DNA from: Betaproteobacteria bacterium
GTDB lineage: Bacteria > Pseudomonadota > Gammaproteobacteria > Burkholderiales > SG8-39
DNA length: 38,497 nucleotides
Direction: 5' to 3'
NCBI GenBank assembly: GCA_004298385.1
Contig: SCTX01000153.1
Location: 1-38,497 of the forward strand
Within the stretch, counting starts at the first letter, position 1. Every line of letters starts with the position of its first letter. The notes beneath the pieces were generated by a model. The model ran no database searches, was not told where the DNA came from, and saw only the letters and a program-made list of their open reading frames with translations. Shown piece after piece: positions 6,640 through 33,775 of this stretch. The translations under genes and the position numbers were made by a program.

Positions 6640-7845
6640 ATGGAAGCATTCCGCTACGAGGCGCTCGACGCGGCCGGGCGCACGCTATCCGGCGTAGTGC
6701 AAGCCGATACGCCGCGCCAGGCGCGGACACAGTTGCGCGCCCAGGGCCTGCACCCCACCTCGGTCGAGTTGGTGCGCGCGCGCGAGCGTGCGCGGCAACC
6801 CTGGACACGGGGCATATCGTCGGACGAGCTGAGCCTGGTGACCAGGCAGATGGCGACACTGCTCGCATCCGGCCTGACCATGGAGCAGTCGCTCAGCGCG
6901 CTGATCGAGGAGGCCGCGGCGCCGATGACGCGCGAGGTGCTGGGCGGGGTCAAAGCCGAGATTAGCGCCGGGCTCTCGCTGGCCGCCGCCCTGGGTACCT
7001 ACGACAAAAGTTTTCCGGATTTCTACCGGGCGCTGGTGCACGGAGGCGAGGAATCTGGCGCGCTGCCGACGGTGTTGCAGCATCTCGCCGATTATCTCGA
7101 TGCGCGCCAGAGGCTGAAGCAAAAAACCAGTCTTGCGCTGCTCTACCCCGTGCTGGTGACCCTGGTCGCGATCAGCATCGTCACCGGCCTCCTGGTGTTT
7201 GTCGTGCCGCAGATCGTGCAGGTGTTTCAGCAGTCGCGGCAAAGCCTGCCGCTGCTCACGCGCGCCCTCATCGCGCTGTCGGATTTCCTGCGCGCGGGCT
7301 GGCCTTATCTCGCGCTCGCCGGCGTCGGCGCCGTGGTTGCCGCGCGCCTGGCGCTGCGCCGCGATGCCCCCAGACGCAGTTGGCATGCCCTGTTGCTCGG
7401 CGCCCCCTGGCTGGGCACGCTGATTCGCGGCGTCAACACTTCGCGTTTCGCCAGCACGCTCGCCATACTCGTGGGCGGCGGCGTGCCGCTGCTCTCGGCG
7501 CTCAATTCCGGCGCGCGCGTGATGACCAACATGGTGATGCGCGCGGCCGTGGAAGGCGCGATCGAGCGCGTGCGCGAAGGCGAGAGCCTGGCGCGCTCGC
7601 TGGGTTCGACGCGGGTGTTTCCGCCGCTGATGGTCCATCTGGTGGCAAGCGGGGAAGTAAGCGGCAAGCTGGAGCAGATGCTGCAGCGCGTGGCGCAGCT
7701 CGAAACGCAGGCGCTCGAGCGGCGCCTGGCGGTATTCCTGACCCTGCTCGAGCCGGTGATGATCCTGGTGATGGGCGGGATCGTGCTGCTGATCGTGCTT
7801 GCCATCCTGCTGCCGATCATCGAGATCAACCAGCTCGTGCGCTGA
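6640..7845 (+). CDS. gspF: Type II secretion platform protein GspF
   Basis: A 401-residue polytopic inner-membrane protein with two GspF/PilC-type domains. Each carries the family pattern seen in LVTRQMATLLASGLTMEQSL and FASTLAILVGGGVPLLSAL. Membrane segments are visible near residues 165-190, 220-240 and 370-395. It couples the GspE ATPase to the pseudopilus. It ends the rightward gspCDEF run, in which spacings are 60 bases, -4 and +9. A diverged copy of codons ~339-363 recurs downstream at 9185-9258. Confidence 0.95.
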   Translation: MEAFRYEALDAAGRTLSGVVQADTPRQARTQLRAQGLHPTSVELVRARERARQPWTRGISSDELSLVTRQMATLLASGLTMEQSLSALIEEAAAPMTREVLGGVKAEISAGLSLAAALGTYDKSFPDFYRALVHGGEESGALPTVLQHLADYLDARQRLKQKTSLALLYPVLVTLVAISIVTGLLVFVVPQIVQVFQQSRQSLPLLTRALIALSDFLRAGWPYLALAGVGAVVAARLALRRDAPRRSWHALLLGAPWLGTLIRGVNTSRFASTLAILVGGGVPLLSALNSGARVMTNMVMRAAVEGAIERVREGESLARSLGSTRVFPPLMVHLVASGEVSGKLEQMLQRVAQLETQALERRLAVFLTLLEPVMILVMGGIVLLIVLAILLPIIEINQLVR

Positions 7846-28981: not shown

Positions 28982-29061
28982 TTATGCAATTACTCCGCAA
29001 CAATTGCCGCATCCGCGCGAATGTTCTTGTCGTATTAGTTGCGGCCAGCGGCAGCGCTAAG
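28982..29061 (+). repeat. Composite repeat, module U (locus A)
   Basis: Eighty bases starting TTATGCAATTAC and ending GCGCTAAGG. It is about 91% identical to the copy at 33668-33748. It contains its own small inverted repeat GCAATT/AATTGC. Its first bases form part of the ribosome binding site of coxG on the opposite strand, so the coxG leader is made of this repeat. Confidence 0.9.
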
Positions 29062-29076
29062 GTAAACACCAAACAT

Positions 29077-29194
29077 GGCGTGGGGGTTTTATTCAAGATC
29101 GCCGCTTGCGCACGGATGTGTTTTTCATCCGTGCGCAAGCGACGATCCGCGTGGACGGTTTTTCGTCCGCGCAGGTTTTGCCAAAACCTGCGCG
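29077..29194 (+). repeat. Composite repeat, module V with three hairpins (locus A)
   Basis: It starts GGCGTGGGGGTTTT. Hairpin 1 has perfect 16-bp arms 29103-29118 and 29126-29141. Hairpin 2 pairs GCGTGGACG (29149-29157) with CGTCCGCGC (29164-29172) with one G-T pair. Hairpin 3 has perfect 12-bp arms 29168-29179 and 29183-29194, overlapping hairpin 2. The same order, except hairpin 3, recurs at 33458-33550. Confidence 0.9.
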
Positions 29195-29254
29195 CTGCGC
29201 GCGCCAACCGTATTTTCTACACGGATAAAAACCATCCGTGCAGAAAATACGGTT
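29191..29254 (+). repeat. Composite repeat, module W hairpin (locus A)
   Basis: It opens with a GCGCG palindrome and CCAACC, then a long hairpin: outer arms 29206-29218 and 29242-29254 (13 bp), inner arms 29220-29226 and 29234-29240 (7 bp), and one mismatch. It ends in GGTTATGCAATTAC, the joint to the next U module. Two more copies occur at 33368-33437 and 33602-33669. Confidence 0.9.
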
Positions 29255-29293
29255 ATGCAATTACTCCGCGACGATTGCCGCATCGGCGCTAAG
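29253..29293 (+). repeat. Composite repeat, internally deleted module U (locus A)
   Basis: The 5' part (TTATGCAATTACTCCGC) and 3' end (GCGCTAAG) of module U are present but about 40 central bases are missing. It ends three bases before the stop codon of the VWA gene. The distance from the first U start is 271 bases, which defines the period of the array. Confidence 0.85.
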
Positions 29294-29295
29294 CT

Positions 29296-30489
29296 TCAGG
29301 CGGCGATTCTACCCGAACGGTGCTGCCACTTGCCGTGCTCCAGCTCGCGCGCGAGTCCGACCAGGCTGTCGATGTTGTGCACCGGCATGAAGGCGTCCAC
29401 GTGCGGCAGCATCGCGCGCACCCCGGACGGTCGCGGCTGAAAGCCATCGTAGCGCAACAGCGGGTTGAGCCAGACGAGCTTGCGGCAGGATTTGTGCAGT
29501 CGTTCCATCTCCGCGCCCAGGCCCTCGCCGATGTCGCGGTCGAGGCCGTCCGAGATCAGCAGCACCACCGCGTTCTGGCCGAGCAGGCGCCGCGACCATT
29601 TGCGGTTGAATTCCTCGAGGCATACGCCGATGCGCGTGCCGCCGGCCCAGTCCTGGATGGCCGAGGCCACCCGGTTCATGGCGATGTCCACGTCGCGGTT
29701 GCGCAGGTGGCGGGTAATGTTGGTGAGCCGCGTGCCGAACACCAGGGTGTGCACGCGGTCGCGGTCGTTGGTGATGGCGTGCAGGAAATGCAGGAACATG
29801 CGCGAATAGCGGCTCATGCTGCCGGAGATGTCGCATAGCACCACCAGCGGCGGATGCCGGGTGATGCGCGAGCGGCGCTTCAATGCGATGATCTGCGCCC
29901 CGCTCTTGAGGCTCGCGCGCAGCGTCGCCGGCAAATCGATGCGCGACCCCAGGGCATCGGGGCGGAAGCGGCGCGTCCGCACTTCGGGAATGGGCAGGCG
30001 CAGGCGCGCGATCAGTTTCTTCGCCTGCGCCAGCTCGGCGCCGCTCATGGTCTCGAAGTCGGCATGTTGCAGCAACTCGCGCGGGGAAAAAGTGACACTG
30101 GCGTCGATCTCGATTCTCCGTAGCTGCCGCTCTTCCTGCGCCTGCTCGCGCTTCGAGTACAGCGCCTCCGACAGGCGCTTCCCCGCTTGCGGCTGCTCGG
30201 CTTGGCCGGCGCGGCCGTAGATCTGCGGCAGCAACAGGCTCATGATGCGCTCGAGCAGTTGCGGGTCGCGCCAGAAGATGTGAAAGGCCTGGTCGAACAG
30301 TTCCTGTTGCTCGCGTTTGGACAGGAACACCGCGGCCAGCGTCCAGTAGAAATCCTCGCGCCGCTCGATGCCGGCGGTCTCCAGGGCCCGCAGCGCATCG
30401 ACCACCCGGTCCGGGCCGATCGGCAGCCCCGCCGCGCGCAACACGCGGGCGAAATGCATGACGTTTTCCGCCAATTTTCCTGTAACCAT
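29296..30489 (-). CDS. coxE: CoxE-like von Willebrand factor A protein
   Basis: A 397-residue protein of the VWA_CoxE family. The N-terminal ~200 residues are helical and charged; the VWA domain follows with the metal-ion adhesion site D220-I-S222-G-S224 and a later TRIGVCLEEF and LLISDGLDRD. CoxE acts with the AAA+ protein CoxD in inserting or sulfurating the metal site of CoxLMS. A MoxR/CoxD-type ATPase is encoded at 35133-36086, separated by other genes. Start ATG at 30489; a -10-like TATAAT ends five bases upstream. The 3' end abuts repeat locus A. Confidence 0.9.
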   Translation of the reverse strand: MVTGKLAENVMHFARVLRAAGLPIGPDRVVDALRALETAGIERREDFYWTLAAVFLSKREQQELFDQAFHIFWRDPQLLERIMSLLLPQIYGRAGQAEQPQAGKRLSEALYSKREQAQEERQLRRIEIDASVTFSPRELLQHADFETMSGAELAQAKKLIARLRLPIPEVRTRRFRPDALGSRIDLPATLRASLKSGAQIIALKRRSRITRHPPLVVLCDISGSMSRYSRMFLHFLHAITNDRDRVHTLVFGTRLTNITRHLRNRDVDIAMNRVASAIQDWAGGTRIGVCLEEFNRKWSRRLLGQNAVVLLISDGLDRDIGEGLGAEMERLHKSCRKLVWLNPLLRYDGFQPRPSGVRAMLPHVDAFMPVHNIDSLVGLARELEHGKWQHRSGRIAA

Positions 30490-30494
30490 GCGGT

Positions 30495-30500
30495 ATTATA
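30495..30500 (-). promoter_or_regulatory. Candidate -10 element abutting the VWA gene start
   Basis: TATAAT on the minus strand ends six bases before the ATG at 30489. If used, transcription would begin at or next to the start codon, giving a leaderless mRNA. No ribosome site is seen between them. The -35 region is poor. Confidence 0.4.
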
Positions 30501-30600
30501 CGGGCTCGCCCTCTGCTCGCGGTTCCAGCCATGCACGACGTCACGCGCCGCCGCCCTTACCGCCGCATCTTTGCGGCGAAGCGGCTATAGAGACGACCGA

Positions 30601-31869
30601 ATGAATGTCTTCTCCAAGCTGTACTACAAACTGCGCAAGATGTGGAAGGCGATCCAGCTCTATCTGGTCATCGCAGGGCCGGGCATCGTGGTCATGGTCG
30701 CCGACAACGATGCCGGCGGCATCACCACCTACGCGGCGACCGGCGCCAAGTACGGCTATCACCTGATCTGGTTCCTGCTGCTGCTGATCCCGGTCGCCTA
30801 TTACGTGCAGGAGATGACCGTGCGCCTGGGGGCCGTCACCAAGCGCGGCCTCGCGGAGGCGATTTTCGACGGTTTTGGCGCCACCTGGGGCTGGTTCGCG
30901 CTCGTCGACCTGATGCTGGTGAACTGGCTGACGCTGGTCACAGAATTCATCGGCATGACGGCCGCCCTCCATATATTCGGGGTGCCGCCCTGGCTGACGG
31001 TTACCGCCGTGGTGCTGCTGATGGCGATCATCGTCCTGAACGGCCGCTACTGGACCTGGGAGAAAATCGCGCTGCTGTTCTGCGCCCTCAACCTGATCTA
31101 CATTCCGGCCGCCTTCATGATCCATCCCTCGGTGTCGGACATCGTGAAACACGGTCTGATCCCGAACTTTCCGGGCGGCTTCAACGGTCAGTTGTTTTTC
31201 TTCCTCATGGCCAACATCGGCACCACCATCGCGCCGTGGATGCTGTTTTTCCAGCAAAGCGCGGTGGTCGACAAGGGCATGCAGGAGAAGGACATTCCCT
31301 GGGGCAAATTCGACACCCTGCTCGGCTCCGCGCTCACCGTGGGGGTGGCCATTTTCATCGTCATCGTCACCGGCACGACCCTGAACGGCACCGACATCGC
31401 AAGCGCCGGACAGGCGGCCGAGCACCTGATGCAGACCGACCGCTATGTCGGCGCCTTCATGGCCATCGGCCTGTTCGACGCCGGCCTGCTCGGCGCCATC
31501 TGCATCTCGCTCGCGAGTTCCTGGGCGTTCGGCGAAATCTTCGGCTGGGCGCACTCGCTCAACCAGAACATCAAGCAGGCGCCATGGTTCTACGCCAGTT
31601 ATTTCTTCGCCCTGATCACTTCCGGACTGGTGGTGTTGATCCCGGGCGCGCCCCTGGTGCTGATCACGCTGTTCGTGCAGGTGATCGCGGTGACGCTGCT
31701 GCCCGCAGCGCTGGTGTTCCTGATATTGCTGCTCAACGATCCGCGCACCATGGGTGATTACCGCAACAGCGGCTGGCAGAACCTGATCGGCGGATTCATC
31801 GTCGCCGCGATCGTGGCCTTGTCCTCGCTCTACGGGATCAGCATCATGTTCCCGAACCTGTTCCAATAA
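30601..31869 (+). CDS. Atypical NRAMP-family divalent metal transporter
   Basis: A 422-residue inner-membrane protein with about eleven helices and the NRAMP fold. The metal-binding helix 1, normally DPGN, reads DNDAGG (D35-N36-D37-A38-G39-G40), so the Asn is Gly. Helix 6, normally with Met-Pro-His, reads GTTIAPWMLFFQQSAVVDKG and lacks the Met and His. These are features of divergent clades thought not to be classic Mn/Fe carriers; loss of the Met is known in NRAMP-related magnesium transporters. It is followed by a 57-residue membrane protein and a soluble MgtE_N/CBS protein, supporting Mg2+ or related cation transport. The ATG at 30601 follows a small CGCCGC/GCGGCG hairpin; the ribosome site is weak. 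Confidence 0.85.
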   Translation: MNVFSKLYYKLRKMWKAIQLYLVIAGPGIVVMVADNDAGGITTYAATGAKYGYHLIWFLLLLIPVAYYVQEMTVRLGAVTKRGLAEAIFDGFGATWGWFALVDLMLVNWLTLVTEFIGMTAALHIFGVPPWLTVTAVVLLMAIIVLNGRYWTWEKIALLFCALNLIYIPAAFMIHPSVSDIVKHGLIPNFPGGFNGQLFFFLMANIGTTIAPWMLFFQQSAVVDKGMQEKDIPWGKFDTLLGSALTVGVAIFIVIVTGTTLNGTDIASAGQAAEHLMQTDRYVGAFMAIGLFDAGLLGAICISLASSWAFGEIFGWAHSLNQNIKQAPWFYASYFFALITSGLVVLIPGAPLVLITLFVQVIAVTLLPAALVFLILLLNDPRTMGDYRNSGWQNLIGGFIVAAIVALSSLYGISIMFPNLFQ

Positions 31870-31883
31870 ACGGGAACCGCTCC

Positions 31884-32057
31884 ATGCGCGTCAGCCTGAA
31901 ACGCCTGTTCCGCAAGATCGAAGAAATCAACCGGCGCTATCGCACGCCGCGCATCGCCATGTCCCGCGGGGGCAGAGCCGCGCTGGAGTTTTTGCGCCTC
32001 TACCTGCTCTTCCTTGTGTGCCTGATGGTGTACAAGTTCATACTGCTGGTGAACTGA
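31884..32057 (+). CDS. Small single-pass membrane protein in the NRAMP operon
   Basis: A 57-residue protein not belonging to any family I recognise. The N-terminal half is very basic (MRVSLKRLFRKIEEINRRYR, then TPRIAMSRGGR). The C-terminal half is one hydrophobic helix (about residues 38-55, RLYLLFLVCLMVYKFILL). It starts 14 bases after the NRAMP stop and ends 13 bases before the CBS gene start, so it sits tightly inside the operon. Codon use matches its neighbours. The basic side should face the cytoplasm. It may be an accessory subunit or regulator of the transporter; that is inference from position. Confidence 0.75.
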   Translation: MRVSLKRLFRKIEEINRRYRTPRIAMSRGGRAALEFLRLYLLFLVCLMVYKFILLVN

Positions 32058-32070
32058 GGGAGGGGCTGCG

Positions 32071-33318
32071 ATGGTCGCCGCACTGGAGCACGAGTTCTTC
32101 TTGGGAGAGATACTGGGCCGCAAGGTGTACCTGAAGTCCGAGAAAACCGGGCGGCTGGACGATCTGGTGATCGTCGAAACCGGCAGGATCCCCGAGGTCA
32201 CCCATCTGGTCGTGAGCCGTTCGTTCGGTTACCCGTCCCTGCTGCTGCCCTGGGACAAGATCGCCCTGATCTCGAACACCGAAATCGTGGCCGACGTGGT
32301 CAACGCCGGCGACTACGAGAAAGCGCCGCCGGCGGGCTCGATTCTGCTCAAGGATCACATCCTCGACAAGAAGATCCTGGACATGGACGACCATGAAGTG
32401 GAGGTCGTCTACGACGTCAAGCTGGTGCTGCAAAACGGAAAACTCTACGCCAGCGAAGTGGATTTCAGCCGCTACCGGCTGCTGCGGCGGCTGGGACTCA
32501 AAAAACTGGCGAATTTCATGGTCGAGCACAATGAAACGGCCACCGTGTCGTGGATGTACGTCCAGCCGCTGCCGGAGCACATCGGCAGTTTTTCCGGCAG
32601 CGTCAAGCTCAAAGTGCTGAAGGACAAGCTGCACGACATCCATCCGGTCGATCTGGCCGATATCCTGGAAGAGCTCGATAGCCACCAGCGCATGGCCATT
32701 TTCAGCGAGCTCGAGCCCGAGCATGCTTCCGACACCCTGGAAGAAATCGAGCCGCGGGTGCAGCGCGAGCTGATCAGCGCGATGAAACTGGAGGCCGCCG
32801 CCAAGCTCATCAATGAAATGAGTCCCGCGCAGGCGGCGGACATCCTGGCGATACTGCCGACGGCGGAGGCCGACGCGATCCTCAAGCTGATCGACAAGGA
32901 CAGCGCGCCCACGGTGCAGCAGATCATCGAGGGCCACGACGAGAATATCCTGCTGTTCGCCACGCAGCAGTACGTCAAGATGCCCGAATCGGCCCCGGTC
33001 GGGGATGTGCTGAAGGACTACCGCGAAATCGTGCGCAACATGGACGTGGACATGTACGTCTACGTCACGGACGCGAAGGATACGCTGCGCGGCGTGGTCG
33101 ATCTGCGCGAATTGATCGCCGCGGAACCCGGGCAGATCATCGGGGAAATCATGACCGACAACGTGATCTCGCTCAACCCGGATGAAACCTTGCAGGACGC
33201 AGTGGACATGTTCGGGCGCTACGGTTTTCGCGCCATCCCGGTCACCGACAATGAGGAACGTTTATTGGGCGTCGTTTCCTTCGACGACATCAAGGGCATC
33301 AAGCCGAGGCTGGACTAG
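32071..33318 (+). CDS. Soluble MgtE_N / CBS-pair protein (cation sensor-like)
   Basis: A 415-residue protein without membrane helices. An N-terminal PRC-barrel-like region (about residues 1-170, with FLGEILGRKVYLKSEKTGRL) is followed by a superhelical MgtE_N domain (about 185-285, HPVDLADILEELDSHQRMAI) and two CBS domains (about 300-415, ending LLGVVSFDDIKG). This is the cytosolic Mg2+-sensing half of an MgtE channel with no channel domain. Next to an NRAMP gene it could gate that transporter by cytosolic cation level. It has a strong GGGAGGGG ribosome site before the ATG. The gene ends the operon; repeat locus B follows. Confidence 0.88.
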   Translation: MVAALEHEFFLGEILGRKVYLKSEKTGRLDDLVIVETGRIPEVTHLVVSRSFGYPSLLLPWDKIALISNTEIVADVVNAGDYEKAPPAGSILLKDHILDKKILDMDDHEVEVVYDVKLVLQNGKLYASEVDFSRYRLLRRLGLKKLANFMVEHNETATVSWMYVQPLPEHIGSFSGSVKLKVLKDKLHDIHPVDLADILEELDSHQRMAIFSELEPEHASDTLEEIEPRVQRELISAMKLEAAAKLINEMSPAQAADILAILPTAEADAILKLIDKDSAPTVQQIIEGHDENILLFATQQYVKMPESAPVGDVLKDYREIVRNMDVDMYVYVTDAKDTLRGVVDLRELIAAEPGQIIGEIMTDNVISLNPDETLQDAVDMFGRYGFRAIPVTDNEERLLGVVSFDDIKGIKPRLD

Positions 33319-33367
33319 GCGTTCTTATAAGACGCATTGATTGCCGGCACGTGCCAAGAGCGATCAT

Positions 33368-33437
33368 TGCGCGCTCCGCGCGCCAACCGTGTTTTCCGTA
33401 CGGATGCAAAAGGCGCATCCGCACAGAAAACACGGTT
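33368..33437 (+). repeat. Composite repeat, module W hairpin, first copy (locus B)
   Basis: It begins TTGCGCGCTCCGCGCGCCAACC. Outer arms AACCGTGTTTT (33385-33395) and AAAACACGGTT (33427-33437), inner arms CGGATGC and GCATCCG (33401-33407, 33415-33421). Compared with locus A, a T-A pair has become C-G on both arms. Confidence 0.9.
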
Positions 33438-33550
33438 ATTGATAAAAACAGGAACAACGCGGGGGTTTAATCCGAGATCGCCGATTGCGCACGGGCGGCT
33501 TTTCGCCCGTGCGCAATCGGCGATCCGCGCGGACGGGCCGCCGTCCGCGC
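33438..33550 (+). repeat. Composite repeat, deleted U joint plus module V (locus B)
   Basis: A short U remnant (about 33438-33457) leads into CGCGGGGGTTT, then hairpin 1 with perfect 22-bp arms 33476-33497 and 33504-33525 and a GCTTTT loop, then hairpin 2 with perfect 10-bp arms GCGCGGACGG and CCGTCCGCGC (33527-33536, 33541-33550). Stem bases differ from locus A in compensating pairs. Confidence 0.9.
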
Positions 33551-33601
33551 AAGCTTGATCGCGGCAGCTCGAGGTATTCGCCGATGTCTGCGCGCGAGCA
33601 T

Positions 33602-33669
33602 TGCGCGCTCCGCGCGCCAACCCTGTTTTTGGTACGGATGAAAAGCGCATCCGTACCAAAAACAGGGTT
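33602..33669 (+). repeat. Composite repeat, module W hairpin, second copy (locus B)
   Basis: The same opening palindrome as the first copy, then a perfect 22-bp hairpin with arms 33619-33640 and 33648-33669 and a 7-base loop. It continues directly into module U as in locus A. Stem positions differ from the other W copies on both arms. Confidence 0.92.
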
Positions 33670-33775
33670 ATGCAATTACCCCGCAACAATTGCCGCATCC
33701 GCGCGAATGTTTTTGTCATTTTGGTTGCGGCCAGCGGCCGCGCTAAGGATAAAACAAAGGGGGCGTGGGGGGTGC
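33668..33775 (+). repeat. Composite repeat, module U and start of module V (locus B)
   Basis: A full module U (33668-33748) is followed by the first bases of V (GGGGGCGTGGGGGGTGCG, about 33758-33775), where the array stops. The palindrome GCGGCCAGCGGCCGC (33727-33741) lies within it. The truncated V ends 17 bases before the malonyl-CoA decarboxylase stop codon. Confidence 0.88.

Follow-up and report, generated by a model that had tools for sequence, protein, structure and literature searches.

The window analysed here, 38,497 nucleotides of contig SCTX01000153.1 (assembly GCA_004298385.1), comes from the metagenome-assembled genome of a Betaproteobacteria bacterium of the SG8-39 lineage. This genome is designated G000, and the other G and L numbers refer to compared genomes and loci. 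Two non-coding loci of the window, A and B, are composed of hairpin modules (U, V, and W) belonging to a dispersed repeat family, the core unit of which is an inverted W-V dimer with imperfect inverted ends, not U-V-W. The most interesting part of the W-V family is paired change at fixed sites: between orthologous copies, the two arms of a hairpin change together. We lean, without strong conviction, towards an explanation in which W-V is a non-autonomous mobile DNA resembling REPINs (inverted pairs of repetitive extragenic palindromic [REP] sequences) and is moved by a REP-associated tyrosine transposase (RAYT), its arms being kept complementary by arm-to-arm copying and U being a separate insert.

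The sequence-only reading was right about a composite hairpin family and wrong in taking U-V-W as its unit. In a consensus of 43 copies, the order is inverted end, w0 hairpin, W hairpin, linker, V hairpin, V2 hairpin, and inverted end. The W half (w0 and W) aligned with the reverse complement of the V half (V2 and V) with a score of 72, the maximum being 28.5 for 500 mononucleotide shuffles of one consensus. The tip CGGATGAAAAGCRCATCCG is common to the W half and to the reverse-complemented V half, and the linker joining the halves is itself an inverted repeat. Thus, the unit is made up of two half-units in inverted orientation, each containing two hairpins. W-V alone was the commonest layout (89 of 176 sampled distinct elements). 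In arrays, V is joined to W by a 15-base palindrome or by a junction of about 50 bases. Placement was analyzed for 29 elements present in 20 pieces of G000 and in the window, with genes called by a simple codon-usage script. None was located inside a predicted open reading frame, in agreement with the extragenic position initially proposed. Twenty were found between codirectional genes, 7 between convergent genes, and 2 between divergent genes (180, 48, and 44, respectively, for all gene pairs). One of the two divergent cases, locus A, is a miscall because the genes on either side, identified as coxE and coxG with Pfam, have the same direction.

Locus A used as a query matched 129 pieces of its own genome (E values up to 10). 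Among 40 genomes, matches were obtained in G000, in all 13 other members of the genus, in one of 10 other members of the family, and in none of 16 genomes from other families. A covariance model of W, for which 150 candidates were scored per genome, gave 136 matches in G000, 145 in each of G011 and G004, and only 3 to 5 in G003, G006, and G012. The V model was positive in 14 of 14 genomes of the genus and in 11 of 84 other members of the family. It was also positive in 3 of 399 genomes sampled from the order, all three from the family of G000; this sample included at least 13 family members and thus about 386 other genomes, all negative. These covariance-model searches of the host and its relatives revealed a dispersed family and not, in view of the W matches in G000, unrelated terminators devoid of other genomic copies. 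Many contigs of G011 end inside U, V, or W (for example L128, L130, L134, and L149), which suggests that recent near-identical copies broke the assembly.

The stem differences first quoted for V and W were exact on re-reading, and matched stem changes held when more copies were aligned. In 80 W sequences (78 distinct), 96.9% of the cells were paired and 159 cells were changed on both sides (shuffle mean of 33.5). In V, 98.0% of the cells were paired and 76 were doubly changed (shuffle mean of 20.2); for both modules, none of 500 shuffles gave a value as high, although relatedness among copies may inflate these counts. Following exclusion of 20 of 158 W copies that could not be parsed, 120 distinct W hairpins contained 254 matched double cells and 68 single cells, with 51 different perfect arms. 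The types of W doubles included 16 transitions and 23 transversions, versus 56 transitions and 12 transversions for the single cells. Mismatches were GT (23) and AC (53) in W, and GT (122, including 80 in two columns) and AC (50) in V. The short V2 hairpin displayed 1 double versus 18 non-Watson-Crick cells.

Changes at fixed sites were counted in elements of different species with both flanks matching, leading to 25 independent pairs with a mean flank identity of 90.4%. This set leaves out 22 of 71 orthologous matches, which rested on a single flank, and dependent pairs (from 49 to 25); two W comparisons with a shifted arm length were set aside before counting. In the 18 W hairpin comparisons, doubles were matched in 25 cases and unmatched in 3, versus 15 singles; in the 17 V comparisons, there were 24 matched doubles versus 31 singles. 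The matched W doubles were all located at positions 5–16 of 21. Coincident changes in arm interiors amounted to 28 for W and 22 for V versus shuffle means of 7.1 and 7.4, respectively (maximum of 14 in 2000 shuffles). In the two W comparisons set aside, arm length changed in a matched manner, by one base per arm between L054 and L325 and, if the order of the W modules in the array is ancestral, by two bases per arm between L012 and L072. Three of 166 parsed W hairpins (L006, L072, and L325) had both arms equally lengthened. For 14 W-V pairs, in-place divergence was 27% in the ends, 18.6% in the linker, 16–20% in the loops, and 15–19% in the arm interiors. It was 3.6% in w0, 1.8 and 3.8% in the W bases, 5.4 and 0% in the V bases, 1.5 and 9.2% in the W tip, 4.2 and 1.4% in the V tip, and 6.9% in V2. 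At fixed sites, arm interiors change together, with little change in w0, at the bases of the hairpins, in the V tip, and in V2. The w0 hairpin, bases, tips, and V2 look constrained where they stand, or homogenised from other copies.

A mutation or a small insertion in one arm could give rise to a matched change in the other by template switching, one arm being copied from the other at the hairpin, and arm interiors would in this way stay complementary. With such copying, the two positions of a base pair would evolve almost as a single site. Doubles, transversions, and matched length changes are all expected from arm-to-arm copying, and all three were seen; hairpin-templated copying, already offered as a source of the covariation, stays a live explanation. 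The part of Monttinen and Loytynoja (2022, PMC8794818) considered here describes the upkeep of RNA hairpins by template switching, one arm being copied from the other and compensatory changes arising in a single event. That work deals with rRNA and microRNA genes, whereas the W-V copies are dispersed bacterial repeats at orthologous sites and do not show loop inversion.

G000 encodes a single RAYT (G000:C14), which scored above the cut-off of PF01797 and below that of NF047646 (57.1 of 80 bits). The earlier statement that there is no transposase nearby therefore applies to the vicinity of the two loci but not to the genome, which harbors this candidate. A tree was built from 40 RAYTs, the 20 best loci and 20 chosen others, and labelled for one RAYT per repeat-positive genome; second RAYTs of positive genomes and the RAYTs of G003 and G107 were left unlabelled. 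All RAYTs of one clade (12 of 12; support 93/83) and of a second clade (5 of 5; 95/88) came from repeat-positive genomes, and the label required 3 changes on the tree versus an average of 13.7 after shuffling. Outside the genus, all 7 genomes with a RAYT of the two clades were positive versus 4 of 77 others (p = 7e-8), in a Fisher test that ignores kinship and counts unplaced RAYTs as outside the clades, only 40 having been placed. Splitting by bit score gave 9 of 13 versus 2 of 71 with a cut chosen after the list was seen. These results indicate that the repeats co-occur with two RAYT clades. W-V elements are probably driven by a RAYT of these clades.

W-V behaves like a REPIN. According to Bertels and Rainey (2011, PMC3116915), RAYTs move REPINs, which, in the portion of that article on which we rely, share with W-V an inverted palindromic pair, a high copy number, an extragenic location, a RAYT in the genome, and tandem clusters. 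W-V differs in that each half-unit spans about 85 bases and contains two hairpins, one with 21–22 bp, instead of being a short REP; it also has inverted ends and lacks a GTAG tag, and the RAYT gene is unflanked by the repeat. For published RAYTs, the same portion of the article places REPs next to the RAYT gene (PMC3116915), and the GTAG motif is described as important in the relevant extract of PMC8266576. The REP families tagged by GTAG or CGTC, as presented in part of PMC3733652, are small palindromes of 20–40 bp with a terminal tag; like W-V, these palindromes lie outside genes, include stem variants that are complementary, and can be arranged as dimers, but neither their size nor their tag fits W-V. 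Tentatively, and with less confidence than for the general explanation, we propose that W-V is a large tagless REPIN recognised by its RAYT via structure, with long stems coupled at fixed sites by template switching, so that covariation would record the mutation process and not only selection on an RNA fold. Instead of reading a GTAG tag, the RAYT would identify the half-units, folded as single-stranded DNA, from their bases, tips, and terminal hairpins and would then move them.

Several observations, in addition to the limits of the Fisher test, weigh against a REPIN-like element moved by a RAYT and maintained by arm-to-arm copying. The two usual marks of REPINs, a flanked RAYT gene and a GTAG-like tag, were sought without success: no significant match to W, V, U, or the ends was detected within 350 bp on either side of 18 RAYT loci (a hairpin with arms of at least 8 bp was present in 3 of them), and no GTAG-like tag stands beside the hairpins in the 43-copy consensus. 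No RAYT hit was obtained in G002 (100 W matches, 89% complete) or G008 (72 W matches, 59% complete). Conversely, G006 has such a RAYT yet only 5 W matches. In G040, G071, G077, and G107, the V model is positive but no RAYT falls in the two clades, and G003 and G012 have 3–4 copies and no such RAYT. No movement was observed. Inverted loops, expected from some template switches, were found in 0 of 293 classified cases (23 ambiguous), and at least two W copies (L067 and L178) have unequal arms, by eye. Elements were mostly retrieved through their hairpins, which favours intact ones and under-represents decayed orthologs. Sites reached by their flanks do show losses: L279 has neither hairpin, L280 and L285 have no V hairpin, and the V hairpin is degenerate in L281 and L287. 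In L279, L280, and L285, V2 is kept and V (also W in L279) is deleted, apparently between short direct repeats located at the foot of the hairpin.

Ectopic gene conversion, in which the arms change together as other family members overwrite a hairpin and the conserved parts are those shared by all donors, is an unlikely competitor. Each genome offers many donor copies, no loop inversion is required, and W doubles were commoner where the loop had also changed (23 in 12 hairpins versus 5 in 6 hairpins with an unchanged loop). Seven of the 25 W doubles and 4 of the 24 V doubles found in place use only arm haplotypes present at other sampled loci; the remaining 18 and 20, respectively, involve a haplotype found at no other sampled locus, in a sampling that is incomplete. 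Doubles per hairpin were near a Poisson distribution instead of being clustered, the ends, which are also common to the copies, diverge freely, and conversion leaves the origin of the matched diversity unexplained. We regard as quite improbable a site-by-site selection for pairing, acting with ordinary mutation on an RNA, such as the 3' region of an mRNA, or on a DNA structure bound by a host protein. The proportion of paired cells and the low in-place divergence of w0, the bases, the V tip, and V2 in comparison to the linker and ends would fit such selection. Doubles nearly as frequent as singles at modest divergence, common transversion doubles, and matched arm-length changes are hard to obtain in two steps, although the argument that selection should leave many more singles is population-genetic reasoning without measured rates. 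In addition, the wobble bias is on opposite strands in W and V, unlike what a single transcript would display; one transcript with one functional strand is disfavoured for this reason.

A classical miniature inverted-repeat transposable element (MITE), mobilised by a DDE transposase acting on terminal inverted repeats, appears very improbable. The ends fit TATAYRYGGCGWCTTAAAT, with 33 matches in G000 versus 3 for the reversed control (at most 3 mismatches), although the inverted repeats are imperfect, and the flank lengths of L218 allow a 2-bp TA duplication. However, no longer element with such ends was detected in the three genomes searched for the pattern, the sole distant pair (G013 C69) encloses apparent host genes (by eye), and the ends are the least conserved part in place. 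An IS200-type TnpA was also considered as the driver and rejected: among the three strongest Y1_Tnp loci, V-W is near L154 only. In L154 (G010:C409), V-W occupies positions 1022–1182, about 320 bases from an IS200-like transposase gene (Y1_Tnp, 1501–1857). Upstream of the RAYT gene, several species (L338–L341) carry leaders of about 60 bases that look alike by eye.

U is a later, separate insert located 3' of TATG. This module, about 75 bases long, was detected in 3 of 14 genomes of the genus and in 27 of the 176 sampled distinct elements, some loci having been retrieved through U. In the W-V linker, GGTTATG|GATAAAA becomes GGTTATG|CAATTAC...GCGCTA(A/T)G|GATAAAA. Of the 7 sites outside this linker where the left end of U is intact, 6 have TATG before U and one has CATG; two further outside copies are devoid of the left end. 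Two relatives have no U at the L002 site and flanks of equal length there, indicating at this one site that U was inserted without target duplication. Two early empty-site candidates were discarded, one containing a U remnant and the other being rearranged. IS200/IS605-type elements and their non-autonomous derivatives insert 3' of a fixed short target without duplication and carry subterminal hairpins. U may behave as such a single-strand element, with its fixed TATG target, lack of duplication, and subterminal hairpin; Y1_Tnp was detected in 11 of 14 genomes of the genus, and no transposase was tied to U. U would now also carry V-W along, in a U-V-W-U composite such as locus A. The same site contains a solo U in G000 (L142, G000:C152:10313) and U-V-W-U in G011 (L064, G011:C218:75430), resembling a solo-LTR (long terminal repeat) pattern. 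In L213 (G000:C124, about 7700–7730) a U tail stands alone, and W-V fills the same site in G011 (L235). The BOX elements of the pneumococcus are also modular hairpin repeats with an optional inner module; the likeness to the W-V family is in modularity, and the host is unrelated.

The modules, coordinates, and stems of loci A and B were found as first described, both loci lying between genes (Table 1). For locus B, the supposed deleted U of the first spacer is the ordinary W-V linker of the family. Locus A is absent from the orthologous place in three relatives (L071, L072, and L073), whereas the place of locus B is occupied by W/V arrays in G011 (L071 and L141), G005 (L072), and G008 (L073); at this place, only G000 and G011 carry U. 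Locus B is older than locus A. Folding gave z scores of -10.5 for W-V of locus B as single-stranded DNA and -7.7 for locus A as RNA.

Table 1. Features of loci A and B in the window.
Feature	Position	Strand	Remark
TTATG target sequence, left of locus A composite	28982–28986	+	same TATG at 6/7 outside U sites with intact left end
U insert, first copy, locus A	28987–29061	+	
V module, locus A	29087–29173	+	22-bp V hairpin 29097–29147, arms 29097–29118/29126–29147, 95% complementary; V2 hairpin 29149–29172
Short palindromic V-W junction GGTTTTGCCAAAACC, locus A	29174–29188	+	junction shared with other U-V-W-U copies
W module, locus A	29190–29254	+	w0 hairpin 29190–29205; W hairpin 29206–29254, arms 29206–29226/29234–29254, 95% complementary
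Second U copy, shortened, locus A	29258–29293	+	
Left inverted end (L), degenerate, locus B array	33326–33368	+	profile match
First w0 + W module, locus B	33369–33439	+	W arms 33385–33407/33415–33437, 91% complementary
Ordinary W-V linker without U, locus B	33440–33465	+	compared with 43-copy consensus
V module, locus B	33466–33551	+	V hairpin 33476–33525, arms 33476–33497/33504–33525, 100% complementary; V2 hairpin 33527–33550
Long V-W junction (about 50 bases), locus B	33552–33602	+	
Second w0 + W module, locus B	33603–33669	+	W arms 33619–33640/33648–33669, 100% complementary
U insert, 3' of TTATG, locus B	33673–33747	+	same place in G011 (L141) also with U
W-V linker remnant after U, V lost, locus B	33748–33771	+	compared with consensus

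The window contains no tRNA gene and no Rfam family at the gathering score, in keeping with an apparently undescribed family. Matches below threshold were to palindromic microRNA models and Burkholderia small RNA models. The sbcD RNA (RF01757) was rejected, with 30.8 bits versus a gathering score of 40 bits, no match in G000, and a match in 1 of 399 genomes of the order. A literature search found no paper describing the W-V family in its title or at the start of its abstract, a weak absence since subscription journals were mostly uncovered. A gene around 30642–31754 was labelled Nramp-like by eye only. Elsewhere, the W of L214:10856–10898 (G000:C124) is shrunk to a perfect 15-bp palindrome, and its ortholog in G011 (L290) has long arms of another sequence. 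The site of L215 holds W-V in G000 and a different hairpin-like sequence in other species (L261–L264, L266, and L258).

Covariation is normally taken as proof that an RNA structure is functional. The orthologous copies of one dispersed hairpin provide a natural experiment in this respect, with paired changes about as numerous as unpaired changes at modest divergence, plus matched length changes. If arm copying is true, covariation alone would be weaker evidence of RNA function than assumed, and the rate of the copying could be measured. The W-V family also offers a RAYT system without the usual tag, and its arms, changing together at fixed sites, bear on how hairpins stay paired.

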